Below, one piece after another: positions 46,476-59,757 of a stretch of 64,000 nucleotides of DNA. Position 1 is the stretch's first letter. Each line of letters starts with the position of its first letter. Location: contig CADCCW010000013.1 of assembly GCA_902800055.1 (NCBI GenBank), positions 62,001-126,000 of the forward strand, written 5' to 3'. The position numbers and the translations under genes are program-made. The notes beneath the pieces were generated by a model. The model saw only the letters and a program-made list of their open reading frames with translations, searched no databases and was not told the DNA's origin. This stretch comes from an uncultured bacterium (GTDB lineage Bacteria > Verrucomicrobiota > Kiritimatiellia > RFP12 > UBA1067).

Positions 46476-46552
46476 GGTCCTGTAGCTCATCTGGACAGAG
46501 CAGCTGCCTTCTAAGCAGCGGGTAGTGGGTTCGAGTCCCGCCAGGACCGCCA
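46476..46552 (+). tRNA. tRNA-Arg (UCU)
   Basis: The 77-nt cloverleaf has acceptor GGTCCTG pairing perfectly with CAGGACC, discriminator G and an encoded CCA (46550-46552). The anticodon stem GCTGC/GCAGC encloses CTTCTAA, giving anticodon TCT for AGA arginine codons. The T-loop is TTCGAGT. Confidence 0.96.
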
Positions 46553-46572
46553 GCAGAAGGAAGAGAAAGTTT

Positions 46573-49274
<2,702 letters not shown>

Positions 49275-49278
<4 letters not shown>

Positions 49279-57855: not shown

Positions 57856-58947
57856 ATGACCAGAAGGAACTTCATCGGACATGCCGCCGCGGCGGCGATG
57901 CTGGCGGCGCACGGCTCGCTGCGCGCCGAGGGCGCGGCCGCCGACTGGAAGCCGGCGGTGCGCTGGCGCGGCTTCAACCTGCTGGGGATGTTCCGCTGCC
58001 CGACGGCTGGCCTCGCGCCCGATCCGCGGGTGGACGGCTTCTTCCCTGAGTGGGAGTTCCAGGCGCTCCACGACTGGGGCTTCAACTTCGCACGGCTGCC
58101 GATCGACTACCGCATCCTCGTCAAGGGCGACAGCTGGACCAACCTCGACGAAGGGCAGCTCGCGAAGATCGACGCGGCGATCGCGTTTGGGCGCAAATAC
58201 GGAATCCACGTCCAGGTGGCGCTCCATCGCATCCCCGGCTACTGCATCCTCGACGAGACCGAGGCGTTCCCGCTCGGCACCAGCCCGCTGGCGCAGGCCG
58301 CCGCGTGCGAGATGTGGGCGGCGCTCGCGAAACGCTGGAAGGGGGTGCCGAACGAGGTCCTCTCCTTCAACCTCCTCAACGAGCCGACGCGCCACACGGC
58401 CGGAGCCAACTACCTGCCGCTCTGCCGCAAGCTCATCAAGGCTATCCGCGACGTCGACCCCGCCCGCTTCATCATGGTGGACGGCAACGCGTGCGCGGCC
58501 GAGCCGGTGCCGGGGCTCTACGACGTGCCGTCGCTCGGCCAGGCCTTCCGCGGCTACACCCCGCATGTCGTCACCCACTTCGGGGCGGACTTCATCAAGG
58601 GTCTCCCGAAGGAGCCGCCCACCTGGCCGCTTGCGGACGGCTACGGCCCCGCCTGGGCGTGCAGCTCGCCCGAGGCCACCGTCGCCAAGTACCAGAGCGC
58701 GCTCGACGCAGGCGAGTTCTGCATGGTCGGCGAATTCGGCTGCCGCGCCTCCACGCCGCACGCCGTCGCCCTCGCCTGGATGGAGCACTGCCTCCGGCTC
58801 TGGCAGTCGAAGAACCTCGGCTGGGCGCTCTGGAACCTGAAGGGAGTCTTCGGCGTCCTCGACTCCGGCCGCGCCGACGTCGCCTACGAGGACTTCAACG
58901 GCCACCAGCTCGACCGCAAGATGCTCGACCTCCTCCAGCGGTACTAA
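57856..58947 (+). CDS. GH5 family endoglucanase/cellulase, secreted
   Basis: A 363-residue GH5 TIM-barrel glycosidase. The start MTRRNFIGHAAAAAMLAA has a Tat-like twin-arginine signal (RRNF). The acid/base is E176 in LLNEPTRH and the nucleophile E293 in MVGEFGCRA; RWRGFNLLGMF, NFARLPIDYRI and HVQVALHRIPGY are typical of the family. GH5 enzymes cut beta-1,4-glucans, mannans or related polymers; the subfamily was not assigned. It ends before a long repeat-rich gap and is separated by 69 bases from ychF. Confidence 0.9.
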   Translation: MTRRNFIGHAAAAAMLAAHGSLRAEGAAADWKPAVRWRGFNLLGMFRCPTAGLAPDPRVDGFFPEWEFQALHDWGFNFARLPIDYRILVKGDSWTNLDEGQLAKIDAAIAFGRKYGIHVQVALHRIPGYCILDETEAFPLGTSPLAQAAACEMWAALAKRWKGVPNEVLSFNLLNEPTRHTAGANYLPLCRKLIKAIRDVDPARFIMVDGNACAAEPVPGLYDVPSLGQAFRGYTPHVVTHFGADFIKGLPKEPPTWPLADGYGPAWACSSPEATVAKYQSALDAGEFCMVGEFGCRASTPHAVALAWMEHCLRLWQSKNLGWALWNLKGVFGVLDSGRADVAYEDFNGHQLDRKMLDLLQRY

Positions 58948-58989
58948 TCCGCCGCCGCCCCTTGTTGTCGTACGCTTGCTGTCTCCTCT

Positions 58990-59155
58990 CCCCAACCTCC
59001 GCTGACGCGTCGGAAGTGTTCCAGTGTCCAGCAGCCAACAACCAGCAATCACTGACAGCTGACCGCTGGCTGCTGATCATTGAAACACTTCCAACGCCAC
59101 GCGTTGCTGAACACTGGCTGCTGATCATTGAATTACTTCCAACGCCACGCGTTGC
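58990..59155. repeat. Palindromic unit, copy 1 (rearranged)
   Basis: Begins CCCCAACCTCCGCTGACGCG and holds GGAAGTGTTCCAGTGTCCAGC, then a shortened centre and two right arms in tandem (each CTGGCTGCTGATCATTGAA... ending ACTTCCAACGCCACGCGTTG). The centre with AGGATG/CATCCT is missing. Confidence 0.75.
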
Positions 59156-59262
59156 CCACCCCGTTTCCCGTTCCCCGTCCCCCGTCCCCCGTCCCTTCCG
59201 TCCCTTCTGTCCTTTTCGTCCCTTTCCCTTCTCGGGGTGGCGGGGCCCCGCCCCCGCCTCAT

Positions 59263-59321
59263 ACTGTTCGCTGACCGCTGGCTGCTGATCACTGAATTAC
59301 TTCCAACGCGGCACGCGTTGG
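59263..59321. repeat. Palindromic unit, right-arm fragment
   Basis: ACTGTTCGCTGACCGCTGGC through ACGCGTTGG, matching the right third of copies 2 and 3, without a left arm. Confidence 0.7.
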
Positions 59322-59330
59322 CCCCCCTCT

Positions 59331-59500
59331 CCCCAACCTCCGCTGACGCGTCGAAAGTGTTCCAGTGTTCAGCAGCCAGTAACCAACAACCAGCAGCCAG
59401 TGTCCAGCAGCCAGTAATGAGGATGAACCATCCTTATTCCACTGTTCGCTGAACACTGGCTGCTGATAGTTGAAACACTTCCAACGCGGCACGCGTTGGC
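59331..59500. repeat. Palindromic unit, copy 2
   Basis: Left arm GAAAGTGTTCCAGTGTTCAGC, centre AGGATGAACCATCCT, right arm GCTGCTGATAGTTGAAACAC then TTCC. Arms are inverted repeats, so the unit can fold into one long imperfect hairpin. Copy 3 begins 176 bases later. Confidence 0.8.
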
Positions 59501-59506
59501 CCCCGC

Positions 59507-59678
59507 CCCCAACCTCCGCTGACGCGTCGGAAGTGTTCCAGTGTCCAGCAGCCAGTAACCAACAACCAGCAGCCAGTGTCCAGCAGCCAGTAATGAGGAT
59601 GAACCATCCTTATTCCACTGTTCGCTGACCGCTGGCTGCTGATCACTGAATTACTTCCAACGCGCCACGCGTTGGCCC
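59507..59678. repeat. Palindromic unit, copy 3
   Basis: Nearly identical to copy 2 through the left arm and the AGGATGAACCATCCT centre; the right arm differs at a few bases (GACCGCTGGCTGCTGATCAC). Confidence 0.8.
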
Positions 59679-59757
59679 CTGTTCCCTCTTCCCTGTTCCC
59701 TGTTCCCTGTTCCCTGTTCCCCGTTCCCTGTTCCCTCTTCCCTCTTCCCCATTCCCC
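59679..59757. repeat. Heptamer microsatellite (TTCCCTG-type)
   Basis: About eleven tandem copies of TTCCCTG with TTCCCTC and TTCCCCG variants, 25 bases upstream of the GH43 -10 box. Confidence 0.85.

Follow-up and report, generated by a model that had tools for sequence, protein, structure and literature searches.

The question raised by this locus is what the long palindromic units between two genes of the window are, and how they came to lie there in tandem; by the window we mean the whole stretch of 64,000 nucleotides that was analyzed. A preliminary description had named a non-autonomous mobile element, a structured RNA and a recombination site as candidates. By direct reading and repeat finders, palindromic units with a period of 176 bp occupy positions 58985-59679, and the features in and around them are the following:

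57856-58947, + strand: upstream ORF of 363 aa, first read as GH5; about 40 bp separate its stop codon from unit 1
58985-59110, + strand: unit 1, the rearranged copy, with a decayed left hairpin CCTCCGCTGACGCGTCGG, GGAAGTG, short heptad arms and a right end of ACTTCC plus hairpin; tip lost; ends at 59005 (+) and 59097 (-)
59104-59158, - strand: orphan right arm, a duplicate of the right arm of unit 1 (period 48, 2.0 copies); end at 59145 (-)
about 59147-59224, no strand assigned: C-rich degenerate 7/9-nt arrays (CCCCGTC, CCGTCCCTT), from repeat finders
59263-59325, - strand: orphan right arm with an intact 8-bp hairpin CCAACGCG-GCA-CGCGTTGG; end at 59309 (-)
about 59324-59499, + strand: unit 2, with left end, CAG heptads, tip TAATGAGGATGAACCATCCTTATT, CTG heptads, right end and 8-bp hairpin; ends at 59346 (+) and 59487 (-)
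59500 to about 59679, + strand: unit 3, the second 176-bp copy; ends at 59522 (+) and 59663 (-)
59677-59749, no strand assigned: 7-nt array (TTCCCTG)n adjoining unit 3; this class of array also flanks the IVP gene on contig C35 of the same genome
59795-61282, + strand: downstream ORF, first read as GH43, from the ORF list

All units are built on one plan: a hairpin is followed by GGAAGTG and 7-nt steps rich in CAG, then come the tip TAATGAGGATGAACCATCCTTATT (absent from unit 1), 7-nt steps rich in CTG, ACTTCC and a final hairpin, CCAACGCGNCACGCGTTGG. The near-identical tandem copies described earlier are indeed present at 59324-59499 and 59500-59675 and are 93% alike; the difference of about 7% excludes a simple assembly duplication. 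The rearranged copy (about 58985-59145) and the right-arm fragment (59263-59325) were also found, and both palindrome arms and the tip AGGATGAACCATCCT read as first given. What that reading had missed is that (i) 7-nt steps run through each unit from GGAAGTG to ACTTCC, (ii) the units are separated and followed by C-rich 7-nt arrays (at 59147-59224 and 59677-59749) and (iii) a second tandem pair with the same spacer lies 6 kb past the window array, at the contig end (L009 8228-8545; G000:C13:127728-128044). By profile, the array holds three left ends (59005, 59346, 59522) and five right ends (59097, 59145, 59309, 59487, 59663), which resolves it into two full units, one unit without a center and two orphan right arms. 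From the end positions, copy 1 lacks its center and there is an additional 48-bp right-arm duplication; the earlier suggestion that this center was lost through deletion between repeats would fit the layout. The units are short, have terminal inverted repeats and contain no ORF, and the ORFs listed across them read as chance frames. An NCBIfam search of the upstream ORF returned no family and hence no confirmation of GH5; named relatives of the flanking gene are mostly from rumen MAGs, several of them labelled Kiritimatiellae. An integron attC reading of the units was dropped by eye.

The palindromes fold better than chance. Folded as DNA, the unit at 59345-59498 has a z-score of -7.45, and the unit at 59521-59674, folded as RNA, one of -7.37; in each case 0 of 200 shuffles were as good. 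All 35 distinct units from the genome that carries the window (G000) and its two closest relatives (G012 and G035) fold at z < -4. We chose a fold score per unit over alignment-based covariation because the units differ by whole heptads, which made us distrust the alignment. In this set, unit length equals 6 modulo 7 in 18 of 35 (9 of the 11 from G000), and of all lags from 3 to 14 it is lag 7 that gives the greatest identity (0.487), from which we conclude that unit length shifts largely by 7-nt steps.

Copies are not confined to this locus. The own genome (2.29 Mb in 61 contigs, 90% complete) gives 53 matches to the window region, some of them to heptad or C-rich arrays only, so that a single-locus feature, named earlier as a refutation, is not what is seen. 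The better matches keep the plan hairpin-GGAAGTG-heptads-tip-heptads-CACTTCC-hairpin, on either strand and in unrelated intergenic places, with both-ended units on several contigs. At genus level, 8 of 39 genomes contain matches to the window region, and at family level 15 of 96; the end pattern CGTYGGAAGTGTYYCAG is present in 12 of 61 genomes of the genus, the reversed control giving 0. Across the class, no more than 8 of 288 genomes have a stricter, exact ISAs1-type end pattern. Counts of the end pattern reach 46 ends in G071 and 37 in G016, many at contig ends, as expected for a high-copy element. With the window units as query, plasmids gave 0 matches. Between two units of locus L012, the gap (1390-1550) is filled by another short repeat, TCCCCGCACGGGGGGTTTG.

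Comparison with the two closest relatives places units at changes of gene order. In G012 the same upstream gene precedes a unit, but the next gene is the one that in G000 comes after a unit on contig C48; in G035 a unit stands directly behind the neighbor YchF. The two flanks of the unit on contig C3 of G000 are found at separate locations in G012 and in G035; a search for an empty site of this copy thus revealed a breakpoint instead, at a rearrangement in G000. In the examined cases the units are thus located at gene-order breakpoints, an association in which cause and effect are not separated, and it is only to this extent that the earlier idea of a recombination site is supported.

A full-length relative links these ends to a transposase. 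Locus L171 (G033:C100; 2.3 kb) has three intact genes: those for an IVP protein (125 aa) and a 106-aa protein share a strand, and a transposase of 388 aa is encoded on the opposite one. The transposase belongs to the ISAs1 family (NF033564, 352 bits against a cut-off of 70); the IVP protein is a PF05635 four-helix bundle (TIGR02436, 70 bits against a cut-off of 24); the 106-aa ORF is a protein of no known family, and PADLOC returned nothing for either small protein. The closest solved relative of the IVP protein is XCC0516 (PDB 2gsc), which we take to be the Xanthomonas campestris S23p structure named in PMC4990558. The element is bounded by large hairpins CCAACGCATT..AATGCGTTGG and a 10-bp duplication, GAACCCCTCC. 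At its ends, a hairpin CCAACGC..GCGTTGG stands flush with GGAAGTG and is followed by CAG-rich 7-nt steps, mirrored at the other end. Locus L053/L094 of G062 encodes an ISAs1-family transposase at 353 bits against a cut-off of 70, with a 9-bp duplication at L094. In L060 (G027) the shared ends flank what is left of a transposase gene, together with a small ORF and a gene for a PF05635 IVP protein. A transposase with matching ends, proposed earlier as a check, therefore exists in other genomes, one of them (G033) of the same genus; no ISAs1 transposase was found in the assemblies of G000 (90% complete), G012 and G035, the three genomes richest in window-type units.

ISAs1 family members make target duplications of 8-10 bp and have ends that begin CAGGG-like. 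The present elements resemble ISAs1 insertion sequences and their MITEs in a transposase well above the NF033564 cut-off, in inverted ends and in target duplications of 9-10 bp in the family. They differ in that the ends of the full element begin with TACGG (reading TACGGCC, not CAGGG-like) and in that it has large terminal hairpins, 7-nt arms, an additional IVP gene and the 106-aa ORF, and in that the window copies lack an ORF.

The connection of the window units to these ends was assessed with a profile to which G000, G012 and G035 contributed nothing: it was built from 27 distinct ends of other genomes. The search covered the window, the loci of the own genome and reversed versions of all of them. 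In the 64-kb window the profile matches the eight unit ends (E 1.5e-8 to 6.3e-4); two further matches are weak, consist of heptads only and lie inside units (E 0.014-0.015), and the best match in reversed sequence has E 0.14. The window-type left hairpin CCGCTGACGCGTCGG is unlike that of the full element and, by eye, appears to be derived from the tip of the large hairpin. A strict element finder paired 19 elements from 85 loci, all of which entered the duplication counts. Target duplications are seen in 7 of these 19: six are exact, 9-11 nt long and positioned at the TACGG/CCGTA boundary, and one, at the own-genome copy C3:30503, agrees at 9 of 10; among mismatched flank pairs 0 of 342 reached 8. 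The remaining 12 show no clear duplication, including the GC-rich window-type units L010, L012, L106 and L151. At the window array none is visible by eye, so the duplications looked for on the earlier suggestion belong to the family and not to the array itself, and it is the shared ends, and no duplication in the window, that place its units putatively in the ISAs1-linked family.

We consider it likely that the units form a small cluster of tandem copies of a transposable element that is MITE-like, has no ORF and is related to the ISAs1/IVP transposon. The units resemble MITEs in being short, ORF-less and dispersed, with autonomous relatives that have the same ends (L171 in G033 and L094 in G062). 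Of the three original candidates, the non-autonomous mobile element is the one that gains support, from the dispersed copies, the transposase-bearing element with shared ends and the target duplications of the family. The ISAs1 transposase would act in trans on ORF-less copies, and the window units probably move in this way. Their arms would lengthen and shorten by slippage in 7-nt units; the 176-bp tandem copies and orphan right arms may have arisen by unequal exchange after insertion, and neighboring genes may have been relocated through recombination between units. Most likely the element renders no service to its host, which tolerates it as selfish DNA in the space that separates a stop codon from the following promoter.

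The IVP gene of the full-length relative points to a wider association. In the own genome, the IVP gene on contig C35 is flanked by inverted AGGGAAG/TTCCCTA 7-nt arrays of a sequence other than that of the window units. We analyzed IVP loci that are mostly top-scoring and therefore a non-random sample: 71 among the matches listed for the family, 28 for the phylum and 16 of 37 plasmid records, the last mostly from Cyanobacteria, plus Gemmatirosa and Azospirillum. A 7- or 8-nt array lies within 330 nt of the IVP match in 41 of the 71 family loci, and a further 14 have one elsewhere in the locus; a near array is present at 12 of 28 phylum loci, against 0 of 30 Y1_Tnp loci. Arrays stand on both sides of the gene in 13 family loci, and in 12 of these they are inverted. 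Inverted complementary flanks were found at 62/70 family, 17/28 phylum and 11/16 plasmid loci, compared with 5/26 Y1_Tnp loci, 4/48 non-IVP plasmid genes and 18/414, 2/162 and 7/90 mismatched pairs. The scoring covered 70 of the 71 family loci and 26 of 30 Y1 loci, the rest having a flank of less than 100 nt, with Y1 gene bounds fixed at 1501-1840. With one IVP locus per genome the count is 25/29, from 29 of 30 loci (L195 was too short).

Some arrays lie inside coding genes. In the window, inverted 8-nt arrays AAGTTGAA.. and CCTTTCAA.. at 48392-48482 are in frame within a 917-aa ORF (46525-49278) that by eye reads like valyl-tRNA synthetase. Arrays of the 7-nt GGGAAGA/GGGAACA type are seemingly within coding genes in L025 (G000:C21; about 440-540 and 1295-1375) and L057 (G000:C35; 1314-1379); by eye, one of these genes is carA-like and one resembles the LexA/UmuD type.

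Filled and empty IVP sites can be compared on plasmids. In the gap behind a TraM-like gene of Nostoc plasmids, L320 carries IVP between AGGGAAC and TGTTCCC arrays, L344 is empty and L348 has heptad arrays without IVP; in this case some 40 nt of the empty site have given way to other sequence. At a second site L329 is the filled form, and L346 and L349 are empty. The nrd genes of L318 enclose an IVP gene that L347 lacks, and one stands between cas6 and cas4 in L325 and not in L345 or L350. No clean target duplication was seen at the compared plasmid sites. The IVP units at these sites appear to be gained and lost as blocks. In three loci (L321, L322 and L325) IVP stands within CRISPR operons (cas6-[IVP]-cas4, cas10-[IVP]-cmr3), with clear flanking heptad arrays in two of the three, and the Dolichospermum cas6-cas4 gap of L345 (980-1270) holds a different palindromic element, TAGGTTGGGTTGACG..CCCAACCTA.

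Several known systems share parts of this picture. In PMC4990558 the Coxiella IVS is described as lying within 23S rRNA, with inverted repeats that enclose an S23 ORF, and older ideas of IVS mobility are cited. The 23S rRNA IVS resembles the full-length relative, and IVP loci generally, in having a PF05635 protein between inverted repeats that can form a long stem; the present elements differ in lying outside 23S rRNA, between genes or inside a DDE transposon, in their tandem-heptad arms and, for the window units, in the absence of an IVP ORF. Heptameric repeats are treated by PMC4679880 (TAACTGA in Beggiatoaceae and Cyanobacteria, with no evident transfer mechanism) and PMC4692102 (GGGAATC in Xanthomonas, also Nostoc, with 70 and 75 convergent pairs). 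They share with our loci intergenic, degenerate 7-nt arrays, often as inverted pairs, and the Cyanobacteria are common to them and to the IVP loci. Term counts return neither four-helix nor transposase in these two papers, and no S23 in PMC4679880. PMC10053308 notes PF05635 as Avd-like (Avd of diversity-generating retroelements), and in PMC10910872 the family appears in the legend of a CRISPR-association figure. Our literature search, largely without preprints and subscription journals, found nothing tying IVP genes to heptamer arrays, and as far as searched the link is new.

The most serious alternative is that IVP genes with inverted 7-8-nt arrays are mobile units which resemble IVSs but lie outside rRNA and whose spread is aided by the IVP protein, that the window units are remnants which lost IVP, and that ISAs1 is merely one carrier. 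The inverted flanks, more frequent than in the controls and seen in 25 of 29 cases with one locus per genome, the Nostoc intercistronic site found filled, empty and with arrays but no IVP, and the arrays around the IVP gene on contig C35 all speak for it. Yet such units have no known enzyme, the plasmid sites show no target duplication and have about 40 nt of the empty site replaced, and the window units possess the hairpin ends of the ISAs1 element, which plain IVP units lack; we regard this explanation as a real but not the favored possibility. If the host used the units as a structured RNA, a terminator or an attenuator in the gap separating the two genes, the very stable folds would be accounted for, and so would the placement of units, by eye, after a stop codon and ahead of promoter-like sequence at several loci. 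Folding is the evidence in favor of such use; an Rfam scan of the window at gathering thresholds gave two tRNAs only and nothing at the units, the hairpins are by eye not followed by a T-run, the neighboring genes differ in relatives and unit lengths differ largely by whole 7-nt steps, which makes such a role very unlikely.

It is still less probable that the units are REP/BIME- or REPIN-like repeats mobilized by a Y1 (RAYT) transposase, although they too are small, dispersed intergenic hairpins in inverted pairs and G000 has five Y1_Tnp matches. Y1 enzymes are not known to make target duplications, and the 9-10-bp ones of the family weaken this explanation, as does the DDE transposase of the full-length relative; in addition, arrays of 7 or 8 nt were found at 0 of 30 Y1_Tnp loci of the family, none of them from G000. 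At the foot of the hairpin stands GGAAGTG, and neither the GTAG nor the CGTC tag of REP-type repeats, as in the title of PMC3733652, was seen. Least credible of all is that simple repeats grew by slippage, became palindromic by local inversion and were never mobile: the 7-nt steps and arrays are present throughout, but complex ends common to several genomes, target duplications and copies at many unrelated intergenic sites largely refute this for the family, and it is possible for single arrays.

For the PF05635 family as a whole, we tentatively suggest, short of an even chance, that its proteins are mobility or maintenance factors of widespread IVS-like elements, in which IVP lies between inverted, fast-changing heptamer arrays and which insert between operon genes across phyla. 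Remnants without IVP would then be a main source of unexplained heptameric repeats in bacteria, and in Kiritimatiellae one lineage would have joined an ISAs1 transposase, with the window units as its ORF-less offspring. Cyanobacteria, Xanthomonas and other bacteria commonly carry degenerate heptamer arrays for which no origin is known, and no function is known for the S23/IVP family; joining the two makes each testable. The IVP genes within CRISPR operons may likewise be insertions, not CRISPR components.
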